From: Xanthomonas sp. CFBP 8443
GTDB taxonomy: Bacteria; Pseudomonadota; Gammaproteobacteria; Xanthomonadales; Xanthomonadaceae
DNA: 64,000 nucleotides
Direction: 5' to 3'
Assembly (NCBI RefSeq): GCF_025666195.1
Contig: NZ_CP102592.1
Location: 2,294,001-2,358,000, forward strand
Of the stretch, positions 19,430 to 26,289 are shown in pieces. How positions within the stretch are numbered: position 1 is the stretch's first letter; each line of letters opens with the position of its first letter. Under the pieces are notes generated by a model. The model saw only the letters and a list, made by a program, of their open reading frames with translations, searched no databases and was not told the origin of the DNA. The translations under genes and the position numbers were made by a program.

Positions 19430-19903
19430 TCGCATGGAGTTTGCGCAGCCCGCTTTCCGGCTGCGCGCGCCGGGGCGCTCCGCGGCGCCGTCGTGCTATT
19501 CGCCGGAAGCGCATCCGCCAGTCATGGCGCCGCCGTTTCGGCTGTCGCTGCAAGCGCGATTTCCTGACGAAAACCAGCGCATCAGCGCCCGGATGCGGCT
19601 CACGCCGCCTACACCTTGCGCCGACGCTGTTTAAGCATCGCGCTGCGTAGCCTACGAGCGTCCGCCAATGACGGAGCGGCCGTCGCGAACTGCGATGCGC
19701 GGCCCTGTCGAGGTCGAGATGCATGACGGCCGCCTGGCCATGCCGGGCCCATGCCTGCCGCAACGCCACGCATCCACCGCGTGGAGGCGACACGGCGATG
19801 GTCGCGGTCCTCGTGCGTTTTCGAGTGCGGGCTAGCTGTCATCGGCCGCCGCTCGCGGCTGCTCTTCTACCAACCACGTACGCATGCGAAGCAGGAGTCA
19901 CTC
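19430..19903. other. Gap without a supported gene
   Basis: About 470 bases after the tRNA hold only short frames with arginine-rich, shadow-like translations. I see no clear repeat, hairpin with U tract or promoter. The last 15 bases carry the AGGAG ribosome binding site of the lipoprotein gene. Confidence 0.5.
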
Positions 19904-20302
19904 ATGAGCAGAACGTTGAAGGTTATGTTGGTCGGTTCGGTCCTGGCGGCGCTGGTCGCCTGCCACCGCGATGGCGACCAGGCGGCCCAGGACCAGAACG
20001 CAGCGACCCCGTCCACCGCAGCCGACGGCAGCCCGGCGGGCGGCCAGAGCGGAAGCGCCGCACCGGCGGCGGGCACCACCAGCGGCGATGCCGCCACCGG
20101 CACCGCGACCGGCGACGGCGCCGCGGGCTCGGCCACTGGCACTGGCACTGGCACTGGCACCGGGACTGGCACTGGCACCGGAACTGGCATGGGGACCGGC
20201 ACCGGCACCGACCAAGGCTCGACCACCGGCCAGGACGCGACCCAGGGCACCCAGCCGACCGATCCGCAGCAGCAGCCTCCGGCCGACAACCAGCAGCATT
20301 GA
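19904..20302 (+). CDS. Small lipoprotein with Gly-Thr repeats
   Basis: A 132-residue protein with a lipoprotein signal peptide: MSRTLKVMLVGSVLAALVAC, where LVAC fits a lipobox and Cys20 would be lipidated. The rest is low-complexity: Ala/Gly/Thr/Gln-rich, with a run of Gly-Thr dipeptides at about residues 78-103, and ending in Pro/Gln-rich sequence. No enzyme domain is visible. The ATG at 19904 is chosen because AGGAG lies seven to eight bases upstream and it gives the signal peptide directly. A Rho-independent terminator follows 40 bases after the stop. It may be a surface or periplasmic spacer protein; function unknown. Confidence 0.75.
   Translation: MSRTLKVMLVGSVLAALVACHRDGDQAAQDQNAATPSTAADGSPAGGQSGSAAPAAGTTSGDAATGTATGDGAAGSATGTGTGTGTGTGTGTGTGMGTGTGTDQGSTTGQDATQGTQPTDPQQQPPADNQQH
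20133..20210 (+). repeat. GGCACT/GGCACC hexanucleotide repeat inside lipoprotein gene
   Basis: About 13 imperfect copies of a six-base unit encode the Gly-Thr run. Because the unit is two codons long, copy-number change would lengthen or shorten the protein without breaking the frame. Confidence 0.85.
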
Positions 20303-20803: not shown

Positions 20804-23302
20804 ATGCCGTCCCCCGCTGTCGCTTCCGCTCCCGCCGCAGAACCCGCGCGCACCGTCGTCCACAAGTTCGGCGGCACCTCGGTGGCCGACGCCGAACGCT
20901 ATCGCCATGTCGCGCAGCTGTTGCTGGCGCGCCCGGAGACCCTGCAGGTCACCGTGGTCTCGGCGATGAAAGGGGTCACCGATGCGCTGATCGCGCTGGC
21001 CGAACTGGCCGCCAGCGAGAACAGCGACTGGCGCGAACGCTGGCACGAGACCCGCGCGCGGCACCGCGCCGCGGCGGTGTCGCTGCTCGGCGAGCACGCC
21101 GGCATCACCGTGGAGTGGCTGGACGCGCGCTTCGAGCATCTGGCCGAGATCCTCGGCGCGCTGGCGGTGATCGGCGAACTGCCGCGCGAGGTGCTGGACC
21201 GGGTGCAGGGCCTGGGCGAGGTGTATTCGGCGCAACTGCTCGGCGAGCACCTGCGCGCGCTGGGCGAGGACTGCGCGGTGCTGGACGCGCGCGAGGTGTT
21301 GGTGGTGGATCGCGGCGAACTGGGCGTGGACGTGGATTGGGAGGCCAGCGCGCGGCGCCTGGCGGACTGGCGCGCGCAGCACCCGCAGCAGCGCATCGTG
21401 GTCACCGGCTTCGTCGCCCGCGATCGCGCCGGGCGCATCACCACGCTCGGCCGCAACGGCAGCGACTATTCCGGCGCGATCTTCGCCGCCTTGTTCGATG
21501 CCGACGAACTGCATATCTGGACCGACGTCGACGGCGTGCTGTCGGCCGATCCGCGGGTGGTGCCCGAGGCGGTGCAGCTGGAGACGCTGAGCTACGACGA
21601 GGCCTGCGAACTGGCCTATTTCGGCGCCAAGGTGGTGCATCCGCAGACCATGTCGCCGGCGATCGAGCGCGGCCTGCCGATCATCATCCGCAACACCTTC
21701 CAGCCCGAGCACCCGGGCACCCGCATCACCGCCAGCAGCGCCTCCAGCGGCCCGATCAAGGGCCTGACCCTGAGCCCGGATCTGGCCGTGCTGAACCTCG
21801 AGGGCACCGGCCTGATCGGCGTGCCCGGCACCGCCGAGCGCGTGTTCGCCGCGCTGCGCAACGCGCGGGTGTCGGTGGTGATGATCTCACAGGGATCCTC
21901 GGAGCATTCGATCTGCTGCGTGGTGCGGCAGAACGAATGCGAGCGCGCGCGCGACGCGCTGCTGTCGGCATTCGCGCACGAGCTGGTGGTCGGCCAGGTG
22001 CAGCGGGTGCAGCTGACCACCGGCATCAGCGTGCTGGCCGCGGTGGGCGACGGCATGGCCGGGCAGCCGGGCGTGGCCGCGCGCCTGTTCGAATCGCTGG
22101 GCCGCGCCCAGGTCAACATCCTGGCGATCGCGCAGGGGTCCTCCGAGCGCAACATCTCGGTGGCGATCGACAGCGCGCACGCGACCAAGGCATTGCGCGC
22201 GGCGCACGCCGGGTTCTGGCTGTCGCCGCAGACCTTCTCGGTCGGGGTGATCGGCCCGGGCAACGTCGGCGCAGCGCTGCTCGACCAGTTGCGGGTGGCG
22301 CAGCCGCAACTGCTGGCCAAGGCCAACCTCGACCTGCGCCTGCGCGCGATCGCTTCGCGCAGCACGATGCGCCTGGAAACCCGCGCGATCGCCGGCGATT
22401 GGCGGCAGGCCTTCGCCAGCGGCCCGCAGCCCACCGACCTGGACGCGTTCACCGCGCACCTGCTGTCGGCGCACCTGCCGCACGCGGTGATCATCGATTG
22501 CAGCGGCAGCGCCGACGTCGCGGACCGCTACGCCGGCTGGCTCGCCGCCGGCATCCACGTGGTCACCCCGAACAAGCAGGCCGGCGCCGGGCCGCTGGCG
22601 CGCTTCCATGCGATCCGCGCCGCCGCCGCGGGCAGCGGCGCGCGCTTCCGCTACGAGGCCACGGTCGGCGCCGGGCTGCCGGTGATCACCACGCTGCGCG
22701 ATCTGGTCGACACCGGCGACGCGGTCACCGCGATCGAAGGCATCTTCTCCGGCACGTTGGCCTGGCTGTTCAACAAATACGACGGCAGCGCGCCGTTCTC
22801 GCAGCTGGTCACCGAGGCGCGCGGCATGGGCTATACCGAGCCGGATCCGCGCGACGACCTGTCCGGCATCGACGTGGCGCGCAAGCTGGTGATCCTGGCG
22901 CGCGAGGCCGGGCGCGAGTTGAGCCTGGAGGACGTGGCGGTGGAGAGCCTGGTGCCGGAAGCGCTGCGCCAGGCCAGCGTCGAGGACTTCATGGCGCGCC
23001 TGCACGAAGTGGACGCGGCATTCGCGCAGCGCCTGCAGGCGGCCAGGGCGCGCGGCTGCGTGCTGCGCTACGTGGCGCAGCTGGCGCCGGACCGCGCGCC
23101 CAGCGTCGGCCTGGTGGAACTGCCGGCCGAGCACGCCTTCGCCAACCTGCGGCTGACCGACAACGTGGTGCAGTTCACCACCCGCCGGTATTGCGACAAT
23201 CCGTTGGTAGTGCAGGGCCCCGGTGCCGGTCCGGAAGTCACCGCCGCCGGCGTGTTCGCCGACCTGCTGCGGGTGGCGGCGGGCGAGGGGGCGCGCTTGT
23301 GA
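20804..23302 (+). CDS. thrA: Bifunctional aspartokinase / homoserine dehydrogenase I
   Basis: An 832-residue fusion that catalyses the first and third steps of the aspartate pathway to threonine. The N-terminal kinase (about 18-310) begins [16 protein letters not shown] and contains [11 protein letters not shown] and WTDVDGVL. Paired ACT domains occupy about 320-470 ([11 protein letters not shown] form, and [13 protein letters not shown]), the site of threonine feedback in ThrA enzymes. The dehydrogenase (about 475-832) begins [14 protein letters not shown] (NADPH) and has [17 protein letters not shown] and [17 protein letters not shown]. The ATG at 20804 follows GAGG at seven bases, which can be hidden in the hairpin described above. 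thrB overlaps the stop by four bases. Confidence 0.97.
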
Positions 23303-24267
23303 GCGCAGCGCAGATGTCGCTGTCGCCGCAGCCCGGCGCGCGCGCCTTGCCGCGCGAGGCGCGTGCGTTCGCGCCGGCCTCAGTGGCCAACGTGGCGGTG
23401 GGCTTCGACCTGCTCGGCTACGCGGTGGAAGGCGTCGGCGACACGGTGACGGTGCGCCGCATCGACGCGCCGCAGGTGCGCATCGCGGCGATCCGCGGCA
23501 CCACCGTGGCGCTGCCGCTGGAGGCGGCGCGCAACACCGCCGGCGCGGCCTTGATCGCGCTACGCGAGGCGCTGGCATTGCCGTTCGGATTCGAACTGGA
23601 GATCGACAAGGGCATCCCGCTCAGTTCCGGGATGGGCGGTTCGGCGGCCTCGTGCGTGGCCGCGCTGGTGGCGGCCAATGCGCTGCTGGACGCGCCGCTG
23701 TCGCGCGAGCAGCTGTATCTGTATTCGCTGGAAGGCGAGGCGGTGGCCAGCGGCAGCCGCCACGGCGACAACCTGGGGCCGATGTTCCTGGGCGGGCTGG
23801 TGCTGTCGACGCTGCAGCGGATGGTGCCGGTGCCGGTGCCGGCGGCCTGGCACAGCCTGTTGGTGCATCCGGATGCGGTGCTGGAGACGCGCCGCGCGCG
23901 CGAGGCGCTGGCGGGCGAGTACCGGCTTGGCGAGTTCGTGACGCAGAGTTCCAATCTGGCGCTGGTGTTGGCGGGCTGTCATGCCGGCGATGAGGCATTG
24001 GTGCGCGCCGGCCTGCGCGACGTGCTGATCGAGCCGCGGCGGGCGCCGTTGATCGCCGGTTTCGATGCGGCCAAGGCGGCGGCCTTGGCGGCGGGGGCGA
24101 TGGGCGCGAGCATTTCCGGTGCCGGTCCCAGCGTGTTCGGGTGGTTCGCGACGCGCGCGGCGGCCGAGGCGGCCGCGCCGGCGGTGCAGGCGGCGTTCGC
24201 GGACGCCGGCTTCGACAGCCAGTATTGGGTATCGCCGCTGCAGTGTCCGGGCGCCCGATTGCTGTAG
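23299..24267 (+). CDS. thrB: Homoserine kinase (GHMP family)
   Basis: A 322-residue GHMP kinase that phosphorylates homoserine. It shows [17 protein letters not shown] at the N-terminus, the ATP-binding [21 protein letters not shown] (motif P-x3-GLGSSA type) and [16 protein letters not shown] near the C-terminus. It most likely starts with GTG at 23299, four bases into the thrA stop (GTGA), behind GAGGGG; an ATG five codons further is the alternative. It is coupled to thrA, while thrC is separated from it by 720 bases of repeats, an unusually long gap for this operon. Confidence 0.95.
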
Positions 24268-24360
24268 CGGCACGTAGCCTAGCTGTTGCTGTTGCTTTCG
24301 GGGTTGTTTTTGCTGTTGCTTTTGCTGTTGCGGTACCGGGTTCCCTTCCCGAAGCGGCGG

Positions 24361-24454
24361 CCATGACGGGGAAAAACCCCGAAGGGGCGGCGCACAAGGA
24401 TGTGCGCCGTTCGCGGCAGGGGCAGGATGCCCCTTCCGCGAATCCCCGTCATGG
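24361..24454 (+). ncRNA. Left cloverleaf element with GGA-loop hairpins
   Basis: An outer 11-base stem, CCATGACGGGG with CCCCGTCATGG, encloses three hairpins: CCCC/GGGG around GAA; CGGCGCAC/GTGCGCCG around AAGGAT (24388-24409); and TTCGCGG/CCGCGAA extended by AGGGGCA/TGCCCCT around GGA (24410-24442). ACAAGGATGT at 24394-24403 equals the core of the published CsrA selection consensus (ACARGGAUGU). Whether it is transcribed as a separate RNA is unknown; it would be part of any thrABC read-through message. Confidence 0.5.
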
Positions 24455-24737
24455 ACGCGGACCCGGAGCGCGCAGCGCGGAGGGCGCAAGGCAGGGCGCG
24501 CTTTCTTTTGGTTACTTTTCTTTGCGCGAGCAAAGAAAAGTGACTCGCCGCAAGGCGAAAGCCTTTGCCTCTGCTTCTGTTTTGGTCTGAAGATTCAAAG
24601 CAAGAGCAAGAGCAAGAGCAAGAGCAAGAGCAAAGCTTCCGCTGGCGCGGGTCACTTTTCTTTGCTTGTGCAAAGAAAAGTAACCAAAAGAAAGCACACC
24701 CGGGCGGCGCGCCCTCCGCGCTGCGCGCTACGGGTCC

Positions 24738-24840
24738 GCAAGCAGGATGGGAATTTTCGGAAGGCACATCCATGTGCCTGCCGAAAACGACGCGCATCCT
24801 GCGCGTCGCCCCCTTCGGGGGTTGTACCCATCCTGCTTGC
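24738..24840 (-). ncRNA. Right cloverleaf element, inverted and diverged copy
   Basis: Read on the minus strand, an outer 14-base stem (GCAAGCAGGATGGG with CCCATCCTGCTTGC) encloses hairpins in the same order as the left copy: CCCCC/GGGGG around GAA; CGACGCGCA/TGCGCGTCG around GGA; and TTTTCGG/CCGAAAA extended by GGCACA/TGTGCC around TGGA. Nearly all stem bases differ from the left copy but pairing is kept, while the loops keep GGA. Confidence 0.5.
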
Positions 24841-24987
24841 CGCGCCTCACGGGAGATCGAAAAGCAAAAAAAGCAACAGCCGAAGCAAGGCAGAGCAACA
24901 ACAAGAGCAACAACAAGAGCAACAACCAAGCAGTGCCATAGTCACGGATGACAGTGCGATCGAATTCCCCCTGCCGATGGAACCACC

Positions 24988-26289
24988 ATGAACTTCATTT
25001 CCACCCGTAATGCCGCGCCCGCCGCCACGCTCAGCCAGGCCATCGCCGCCGGCCTGGCGCCCGATGGCGGGCTGTATGTGCCCGAGCGCATGCCACCGGC
25101 CCGCGAACTGCGTGCTGGTGACAACCTGGCCGAGACCGCCGCGACGCTGCTGGCGCCGTTCTTCGATGGCGACGCGCTCGCCGCCGAGCTGCCGGCAATC
25201 TGCGCCGAGGCCTTCGATTTCGCTGCGCCGCTGCAGTCGCTGGCCACGCCCGGCGACCACGCGCTGGAGCTGTTCCATGGGCCGACCGCCGCGTTCAAGG
25301 ATTTCGGCGCGCGCTTCCTCGCCGCCTGCCTGGCCCGGTTGCGCCGCGATGCCGCCACGCCGCTGACCATCCTCGTCGCCACCTCCGGCGATACCGGCGC
25401 CGCGGTGGCCGCCGCGTTCCATCGCCAGCCTGGGCTGCGCGTGGTGGTGCTGTATCCGGACGGGCGCGTGTCGCCGCGCCAGGCGCATCAACTGGGCTGC
25501 TTCGGCGACAACATCCAGGCGCTGCGCGTGGCCGGCACCTTCGACGACTGCCAGGCGCTGGTCAAGCAGGCCTTGAACGATGCCGAGCTGCAGGCGCAGG
25601 CGCCGTTGAGTTCGGCCAACAGCATCAGCCTGGGCCGGCTGCTGCCGCAGATGAGCTACTACGCGCACAGCGCGCTGGTGCATTACGCCGGGCGTGCGCA
25701 GCCGCTGAACCTGGTGGTGCCGACCGGCAACCTCGGCAATGCGCTCGCCGCGATCCTGGCGCGCGGGCTGGGCGTGCCGCTGGGCCGTATCGTGCTGGCG
25801 ACCAACGCCAACCACGTGCTGCCGGACTATTTCGCCGGCGCCGACTACGCCCCGCAACCCAGCGTGGCCACCGTGGCCAATGCGATGGACGTGGGCGCGC
25901 CGAGCAATTTCGAGCGCCTGCGCTGGCTGTACCGCGGCGACGATGCCGCGTTGCGCGCGCAGTTCCAGTCGTATTCGGTGGACGATGCGCAGATCCGCCA
26001 GCTGATCGGCGAGCGCTTCCGCCGCTACGGCGAGGTGCATTGCCCGCATACCGCCACCGCGTTGCACGTACTGCAGCAGATCCGTGCCGAGGGCGCCGAG
26101 GCCGATGCCGGCGACTGGGCGGTGGCCGCGACCGCGCATCCTGCCAAGTTCGAGGCGGTGGTCGAGCCGTTGATCGGCCAGCCGGTGCCGGTGCCGCCGG
26201 CGTTGGCGGCGTTGCTGCAGCGCCCGGCGCACGCCGAGCCGATCGCGCCGGACTACGCGGCACTGCGCGCGCGCCTGCTGGCCGGCTGA
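24988..26289 (+). CDS. thrC: Threonine synthase
   Basis: A 433-residue PLP enzyme that converts O-phosphohomoserine to threonine. The N-terminus NFISTRNAAPAATLSQAI and GLAPDGGLYVPE are typical of the ThrC group. The PLP-binding lysine is in HGPTAAFKDFGARFL, and the phosphate-binding loops are ATSGDTGAAV and PTGNLGN. The ATG at 24988 gives the usual N-terminus. It completes the thrABC set, but the long repeat-filled gap before it means it may have its own promoter or depend on read-through. Confidence 0.96.
   Translation: MNFISTRNAAPAATLSQAIAAGLAPDGGLYVPERMPPARELRAGDNLAETAATLLAPFFDGDALAAELPAICAEAFDFAAPLQSLATPGDHALELFHGPTAAFKDFGARFLAACLARLRRDAATPLTILVATSGDTGAAVAAAFHRQPGLRVVVLYPDGRVSPRQAHQLGCFGDNIQALRVAGTFDDCQALVKQALNDAELQAQAPLSSANSISLGRLLPQMSYYAHSALVHYAGRAQPLNLVVPTGNLGNALAAILARGLGVPLGRIVLATNANHVLPDYFAGADYAPQPSVATVANAMDVGAPSNFERLRWLYRGDDAALRAQFQSYSVDDAQIRQLIGERFRRYGEVHCPHTATALHVLQQIRAEGAEADAGDWAVAATAHPAKFEAVVEPLIGQPVPVPPALAALLQRPAHAEPIAPDYAALRARLLAG

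Follow-up and report, generated by a model that had tools for sequence, protein, structure and literature searches.

An inverted element of ~600 bp is located between thrB and thrC in Xanthomonas sp. CFBP 8443. The two cloverleaves of this element are tentatively interpreted as halves that together make up one copy of a mobile-type repeat, non-coding and palindromic, the RNA of which may dock RsmA/CsrA. The repeat is dispersed, its stem pairs covary, and GGA is held in the loops of hairpins 2 and 3. All positions refer to the window, which is the whole stretch of 64,000 nucleotides that was analyzed.

The initial annotation had placed two inverted cloverleaves of the same four-stem architecture inside thrABC. 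Folding confirmed the coordinates and the shared architecture, and Pfam identified thrB and thrC as the neighbors and agreed with a thrA-type aspartokinase/homoserine dehydrogenase (Table 1). In both cloverleaves, the outer stem encloses a short GAA-loop hairpin followed by two longer hairpins with A(N)GGAT loops. The main outer stem of the left fold spans 24361-24454. Read from the outside to the inside, each half contains a GTTGCT-type simple repeat, the cloverleaf, a linker hairpin, and a 35-nt constant hairpin, GGTTACTTTTCTTTGC-NNNN-GCAAAGAAAAGTNAC. Other copies that were read are bordered by repeats similar to (GCTGTT)n. The bases of the left hairpin 2 loop are indeed those that had been annotated. 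Separately, an ORF upstream of thrA (19751-20302, + strand) encodes a long Gly-Thr repeat run.

Table 1 Positions of the thrB-thrC element, its parts, and its neighboring genes in the window.
Feature	Position	Strand	Basis or remark
thrB (homoserine kinase), upstream neighbor	23299-24267	+	Pfam GHMP kinase domains
Simple repeat (GCTGTT)n, outer flank of left half	24282-24331	.	Tandem Repeats Finder
Left half, covariance model R1 match	24341-24479	+	150.8 bits; copy is among the model's own building sequences
Left cloverleaf, GGA strand = +	24357-24458	+	DNA fold, MFE z -11.2
Left hairpin 2, loop A-AGGA-T	24388-24409	+	ACAAGGATGT at 24394-24403
Left hairpin 3, loop A-GGA-T	24410-24442	+	Stem has unpaired C facing T
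Linker hairpin CCC-GGA-GCGC-GCA-GCGC-GGA-GGG	24462-24484	+	Folding
Constant hairpin GGTTACTTTTCTTTGC-GCGA-GCAAAGAAAAGTGAC	24510-24544	+	Pattern search, own genome
Simple repeat (AGCAAG)n, center of pair	24599-24633	.	Tandem Repeats Finder
Constant hairpin, second copy, inverted	24651-24685	-	G000:C1:2318651-2318685
Right half, R1 match	24717-24856	-	132.8 bits; copy is among the model's own building sequences
Right cloverleaf, GGA strand = -	24738-24840	-	DNA fold, MFE z -10.8
Right hairpin 3 loop ATGGAT	24768-24773	-
Right hairpin 2 loop AGGAT	24796-24800	-
Simple repeat (AGAGCAACAACA)n, outer flank of right half	24892-24926	.	Tandem Repeats Finder
thrC (threonine synthase), downstream neighbor	24988-26289	+	Pfam Thr_synth_N and PALP

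A chance fold was rejected for both cloverleaves at a z of about -11, and none of 200 shuffles folded equally well as DNA. Similarly, the z value as RNA was -8.3 for 24354-24460 (+) and -9.4 for 24734-24844 on the + strand, which is the complement of the GGA strand there; 0/200 shuffles were equal in either case. All 45 stem pairs of the left copy and 44 of the 45 in the right copy are standard pairs. The annotated statement that almost all stem bases differ between the two copies was wrong, since 34 of the 45 pairs are identical. The compensatory changes themselves were borne out. In the model alignment, all 11 differing pairs carry changes at both partners, and no pair is changed at a single partner.

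Covariation was then measured among 88 distinct copies from the genus, in which 98.7% of the cells pair and two-sided changes are found at 24 of the 45 stem pairs. The number of covariation cells was 480, compared with 138 in shuffles (0/500 as high) and at most 69 with slid partners. The covariation score for the same copies was 0.361, compared with 0.137 in shuffles (0/500) and at most 0.096 when the partners were slid. The number of further pair types was not in excess in these copies (53 vs 51.9 in shuffles, 183/500). Because kin sequences can beat such shuffles, the weight is carried by the slid control and by the two-sided changes. Helix 5, formed by the inner four pairs of the linker hairpin, is invariant and therefore uninformative either way. 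One alignment took 54 of 93 distinct copies, with partial copies and near-duplicates omitted. These data indicate that what is conserved is the fold and not the sequence, as the initial annotation had proposed.

The strand that folds was assessed from the mismatches in three sets of copies: A2 from the genus, A3 from other genera, and A4, with 34 rows, four of them from one genome of the same family (G047) and the rest from other families. In the outer stem of A2, mismatches on the GGA strand were G.T in 102 cells and A.C in 2. This points, with caution, to folding of the GGA strand as a single strand, either RNA or DNA. A two-strand cruciform as the sole selected form was rejected on the same count, with which the alignment-free G.U count disagrees: this gave 107 G.U pairs in folds of the GGA strand vs 135 in folds of its complement in A2, 56 vs 74 in A3, and 50 vs 77 in A4, and did not favor the GGA strand. 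The G.T bias of A2 is confined to the outer stem, where 41 of the G.T cells come from one pair, and no bias was found in the arms (5 vs 5). In A3 the numbers of G.T vs A.C were 19 vs 4 in the outer stem and 4 vs 13 in the arms. The bias was reversed in A4 (9 vs 28 outer, 12 vs 24 arms), for which the alignment is rough. Folding energy prefers the GGA strand in 74/87 (A2), 22/33 (A3), and 19/28 (A4) copies.

The GGA loops were kept, as annotated. The hairpin 2 loop contains GGA in 86/88 genus copies, 29/32 copies of A3, and 32/33 copies of A4, and the hairpin 3 loop in 84/88, 32/33, and 32/33, respectively; the single hairpin 3 miss in A3 is a spurious antisense row, one of the 33. The loop of hairpin 1 contains GGA in 2/88, 1/33, and 0/33 copies of the three sets and drifts among GAA, GCA, GTA, and GGA. 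Thus GGA persists in loops 2 and 3 while the stems diverge. A few copies lack GGA in one loop (CACGATG). When the copies were folded singly, at least two GGA hairpin loops were formed in 81/88 genus copies and in 31/33 copies from other genera, one of the 33 being the spurious antisense row. The motif ACANGGATGT, which we take to match the CsrA/RsmE consensus, was found in 81/88 and 23/33 copies, respectively. In 56 of the 57 genus copies with exactly two motif matches, the starts of the two sites differ by 27 or 28 nt.

The window contains four A(N)GGAY hairpins with five or more Watson-Crick pairs, all within the two folds and two per strand. Other triplets in the GGA position gave up to 8 such hairpins in the window (CCG), so it is the place of these hairpins that matters and not their number. 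Extra A(N)GGAY hairpins were not enriched near lone halves (53 loci, 51 distinct): five were found downstream on the same strand, two of which are hairpin 3 itself split by a partial match, and two on the opposite strand. The linker hairpin carries GGA in 8/33 copies from other genera vs 1/87 in the genus and 2/29 in A4, a count that is given little weight because several of the 8 share one locus. In two loci (L161 and L164), a folded insert occupies the constant-hairpin loop, and the opposite strand of this insert includes an AAGGAT hairpin.

Many further copies with preserved pairing were found by the covariance model search that had been named as a test of the annotation. In the own genome, the query 24330-24480 matched at least 18 places at E < 1e-8, and R1 found at least 20 halves at 13 sites, composed of seven inverted pairs and six lone halves. 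All seven pairs are in the order + then -. The six lone halves are single matches in their stretches (L173-L178), besides weak opposite-strand echoes of the same folds. The constant hairpin was found at 17 places in this genome, all adjoining a half, and the reversed control pattern at none. Matches were found in 20/20 genomes of the genus, from 2 to at least 38 per genome; in at least 79/149 genomes and at least 37/54 genera of the family by R1; and, as diverged copies, in at least 15/369 genomes of the class Gammaproteobacteria, 13 of them outside the family. These numbers are lower bounds, as the best 40, 22, and 8 candidates per genome were scored for genus, family, and class, respectively. 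When named genomes were scanned with the constant hairpin as the only query, the matches listed were from Xanthomonas, Stenotrophomonas, Pseudoxanthomonas, Lysobacter, [Pseudomonas] boreopolis, Mannheimia, Bowmanella, Stagnimonas, and Sulfuricaulis, among others that the list may not have reached. The dispersal and the inverted pairs fit the palindromic mobile-type repeat that the initial annotation had suggested as one reading.

The copies tend to be found at the same sites. The thrB-thrC pair is present in 16/20 genomes of the genus; in the remaining four, the fetched stretch around thrC contains no cloverleaf, and thrB is not within 1.5 kb. At a second and a third site, both halves are present in 14/18 and 16/19 loci, one half in 2 and 1, and none in 2 and 2, respectively. 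One of the loci with none (L228) stops short of the element, and a second match in G002 (L263) was omitted. Element-free sites occur in G004 and G001. Reading by eye revealed one pair collapsed to a hybrid in G004 and, in the small-genome species G013, a decayed remnant in which the simple repeats persist. The same-site retention across the genus indicates that the copies are long-lived in place. The best paralogues are 96-97% identical to the thr left half, and the orthologues of the left half are 86-98% identical. Paralogues as alike as orthologues suggest that gene conversion or renewed spread may have acted among the copies.

Several arrangements of the halves were also observed. Two pairs ~13 kb apart (G000:C1:383971-384466 and 397427-397922) are inverted copies with 94.6% identity over 590 bp (L180 vs L181), and a spacing of about 14 kb between halves is seen in several relatives. 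Inverted pairs with the ~13-kb spacing could be possible seeds for inversion. In G132, the fetched halves are paired oppositely, with the 5' ends facing (L166-L169). An ORF that resembles an IS110-type transposase, as read from the sequence, lies between two halves 1.4 kb apart (L102:1777-2784).

The constant hairpin was used on its own to define the frame in which the cloverleaf is located. A total of 83 distinct constant hairpins were found by the hairpin alone (80 loci listed), with four hairpins close to a locus end omitted. By folding, 57 of the 83 have at least two GGA loops upstream, 13 have one, and 13 have none; by stem matching, the numbers are 54, 8, and 21, respectively. An interior named type B (GTCTGAGCGnAGCGAGTT), which has no GGA loop, occupies the same frame upstream of the constant hairpin at nine of the loci with fewer than two GGA loops (L274, L275, L277, L283, L288, L294, L298, L302, and L339), seven of them identified by a strict motif. 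The hosts are Stenotrophomonas, Pseudoxanthomonas, and Xanthomonas sp. XNM01. The strict motif gave 16 matches in 10 loci, of which 10 have both feet (GAGCATCGCAG ... GAGAAGCGCAGG) and 9 have the constant hairpin near; it gave no match in the 64-kb window. Of 11 loci with GGA-type copies from other families, 7 likewise have the 5' foot pattern at their cloverleaf. The GGA-free interior in the same frame indicates that the frame is not dependent on the GGA loops. By eye, the Mannheimia and Stagnimonas loci also resemble type B.

A nested multi-hairpin module of ~95 nt was also observed inside the loop of a GGA hairpin. The module is in hairpin 3 within the genus (L075:1856-2081, L078:1047-1272, and L087:2007-2232) and in hairpin 2 in [Pseudomonas] boreopolis (L315, L317, L327, and L328). 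The seven copies of the module align end to end.

These observations bear on the explanation that the element is a mobile repeat acting at the DNA level alone, with the GGA strand folding when single-stranded during replication or transposition, an enzyme reading the fold and the loops, and the likeness to RsmA sites being incidental. This is possible, although it leans to the unlikely side. It is favored by the inverted pairs and the dispersal, by lone halves without sense bias (see below), by the GGA-free interior housed in the same frame, and by the nested module, which leaves the branching intact while destroying the loop in two genera. The loops of hairpin 1 and the linker are mostly GNA or GNNA (GAA, GCA, GTA, GTTA, GTCA), and loops of this type are especially stable in DNA. 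However, the hold on GGA with A-Y closing in hairpins 2 and 3, the RsmA pattern, is left unexplained when hairpin 1 drifts. Most copies also lack the GT(A/G)G foot of REP, which was present in 8/88 genus copies and 12/33 copies from other genera, and REP/RAYT membership by head motif was rejected. Similarly, integron attC was rejected, as the paired cores RYYYAAC / GTTRRRY were present in 2/88 and 0/33 copies.

REP/BIME elements are mobilized by RAYT transposases. They are described as intergenic, palindromic, single-strand folding, and alternating in orientation (PMC2817692). The thrB-thrC repeat shares these traits, but its fold is much larger and branched, and most copies have no GTRG head. 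A Xanthomonas-type REP (GTAGGAGCG...) is found apart from the repeat, nested between halves. In L036, L037, and L116, GTAGGAGCGGCTTCAGCCGCGAC repeats are likewise nested between halves and are similar to the Xanthomonas REP described in PMC2817692. Like MITE-type elements, the repeat is short and non-coding, with inverted repeat ends and many copies at unrelated places; its ends are masked by the flanking simple repeats, and no target-site duplication is readable.

The element was also compared with known RNA families. A known Rfam family was rejected at the gathering level for the window copy and for 18 loci with copies, none of which gave a match. In a permissive scan of nine loci, five of the eight sub-threshold matches coincide with cloverleaves, and all five are to members of the CsrA-binding clan CL00106 (TwoAYGGAY, RsmW); the other three (isrK, nadA, and a microRNA model) lie off the cloverleaves. 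A permissive scan of the window gave 13 matches, for which several unrelated models were equally good, and the best was a microRNA model on the constant hairpins. Among these matches, RsmW spans the left half, the unrelated models CrfA, Chloroflexus-1, ncS011, and BTH_s1 match the cloverleaves weakly, and Bacillaceae-1 (RF01690) matches 24744-24805 on the + strand, the complement of the right half, with 26.9 bits against a cut-off of 35.

TwoAYGGAY (RF01731, clan CL00106) is among the closest comparisons. Its model matched 32/149 genomes of the family at E <= 0.01 and 5/149 above the cut-off of 43 bits; no match to the window copies was found at E <= 5 or at the gathering level. The cut-off was passed by halves in the same frame (L215-L217, in G106, G152, and G121), which marks the cloverleaf interior as a predicted relative of TwoAYGGAY RNA. 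Both have a multibranch fold and two adjacent hairpins with A(N)GGAY loops. Unlike TwoAYGGAY, the element described here is a dispersed, inverted repeat of ~600 bp that is flanked by simple repeats and includes a constant TTTCTTTG hairpin. Of the four window loops, AAGGAT and AGGAT on the left and AGGAT and ATGGAT on the right, one fits AYGGAY. Matches to RF01731 without the repeat frame were also found (L213, L214, L219, L222, and L223), with L213 and L214 above the cut-off. These are plain TwoAYGGAY-type RNAs, in which a long stem bears two AYGGAY hairpins; RF01731 matched several times in G118. Bacillaceae-1 was reported from another phylum, and its match here is below the cut-off. We know of no repeat frame for Bacillaceae-1. 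TwoAYGGAY has been proposed to bind CsrA, as has Bacillaceae-1 in its reverse complement, which was reported to match the CsrA motif (PMC4333381). No paper describing the repeat was found, as judged on titles and the starts of abstracts, and the string of the constant hairpin gave no literature match.

The own genome has one csrA/rsmA gene, and a CsrA gene was found in 145/149 family genomes and in 135/135 of the good ones. RsmA of Xanthomonas citri was reported to bind GGA in the loop of an mRNA leader (PMC3937308), and the same 2014 paper describes xanthomonads as lacking the inhibitory RNA rsmB. The one RsmA-sequestering RNA of Xanthomonas that our literature searches yielded is RsmU, an RsmA-binding RNA said to derive from the comEA 3' UTR (PMC7694677). 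RsmU was set aside as the same element, by its published description alone.

Transcription through the element is plausible, given its position inside thrABC. A consensus scan of the window copy found no sigma-70-like promoter in 24200-25000. Three terminator-like matches were found in the same interval, compared with 1.3 expected (sd 1.2); one (24717-24689) is on the GGA strand of the right half, immediately 3' of that half, and the other two lie in the middle of the pair. The orientation was counted for distinct lone halves: of the 40 with determinable neighbors, 9 are sense, 13 antisense, 15 convergent, and 3 divergent. Genes were called crudely by codon-position GC, and 16 of the 56 distinct lone halves had no determinable neighbors; the count passed over 15 loci that contain more than one half, and the duplicates L132/L153 and L129/L170 were counted once.

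A dedicated and selected family of RsmA decoy RNAs, which would be the missing counterpart of CsrB/RsmZ in Xanthomonas with its copies kept for titration, is unlikely. The repeat resembles the CsrB and RsmX/Y/Z decoys in having several hairpin loops in which GGA agrees with the RsmA consensus. In addition, the copies stay put, as shown by the thr pair and by at least one half at 16/18 and 17/19 loci of the two other sites, and even the small-genome species retains its decayed remnant. The CsrB and RsmZ models were above the cut-off in 0/20 genus genomes, although the RsmZ search has no positive control because that model was above the cut-off in 0/14 control genomes. Against the decoy family, no promoter was recognized, and the repeat is dispersed rather than confined to one or few loci. 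A decoy read by run-through should be sense-biased, so the 9 sense vs 13 antisense lone halves count against it. The frame has GGA-free variants, the copy number ranges widely between species (2 to at least 38 matches), and RsmU has already been described as an RsmA-binding RNA. The fold, the copies, the GGA loops, and the mobile-type repeat of the initial annotation hold; the lack of sense bias, the lack of a promoter-like site, and the GGA-free interiors elsewhere do not support its decoy role, which stays hypothetical.

It is also improbable that the fold and the T-rich stretch that follows it end or protect transcripts in both directions via the inverted pair: the convergent lone halves outnumber the divergent ones and one of the terminator-like matches adjoins the right half, but the other two lie in the center of the pair, full termination inside thrABC would cut off thrC, and the GGA loops are left unexplained.

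The tentatively preferred reading, a mobile-type repeat with an RNA that docks RsmA/CsrA, would work as follows. Each half is built from a (GTTGCT)n tract, the outer stem, a branched interior, the linker hairpin, and the constant TTTCTTTTGGTTACTTTTCTTTGC hairpin. The interior in this lineage is the TwoAYGGAY-related cloverleaf, in which the starts of the two A(N)GGAY hairpins are separated by 27-28 nt. Because the halves are oppositely oriented, only one thr half would be in the GGA sense per transcript, and a transcript that enters the pair from either side would read the GGA-sense half first. Such an RNA would therefore present a pair of sites at which one RsmA/CsrA dimer could dock. From the sequence, we infer that the cloverleaf RNA would bind RsmA/CsrA. 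Docking may titrate RsmA, or it may tag and stabilize the transcript. The spread and homogenization of the copies would be a DNA-level process independent of the GGA loops.

A broader reading is more doubtful. The repeats may be a class of modular mobile repeats found across the Gammaproteobacteria, with a constant frame and exchangeable interiors that fold as single strands, one of which docks RsmA/CsrA. The constant frame of this class would comprise the simple-repeat flanks, the foot sequences, and the TTTCTTTG hairpin. In Xanthomonadaceae, tens of copies would then act as a distributed RsmA sponge or tag that replaces the usual Csr RNAs. If this modular-repeat reading is true, a selfish repeat has been drafted into a global post-transcriptional circuit.

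Among bacterial repeats, a frame with swappable folded interiors is an unusual design, whether or not RsmA is involved. The repeat would also tie the orphan Rfam family TwoAYGGAY to a mobile-type repeat and be a case of stronger constraint on the fold and on two loops than on the sequence. With at least 20 halves of two hairpins each, the own genome carries about 40 RsmA-type hairpins or more. The presence of the repeat in all 20 genomes of the genus makes the question of an RsmA antagonist in Xanthomonas directly testable.
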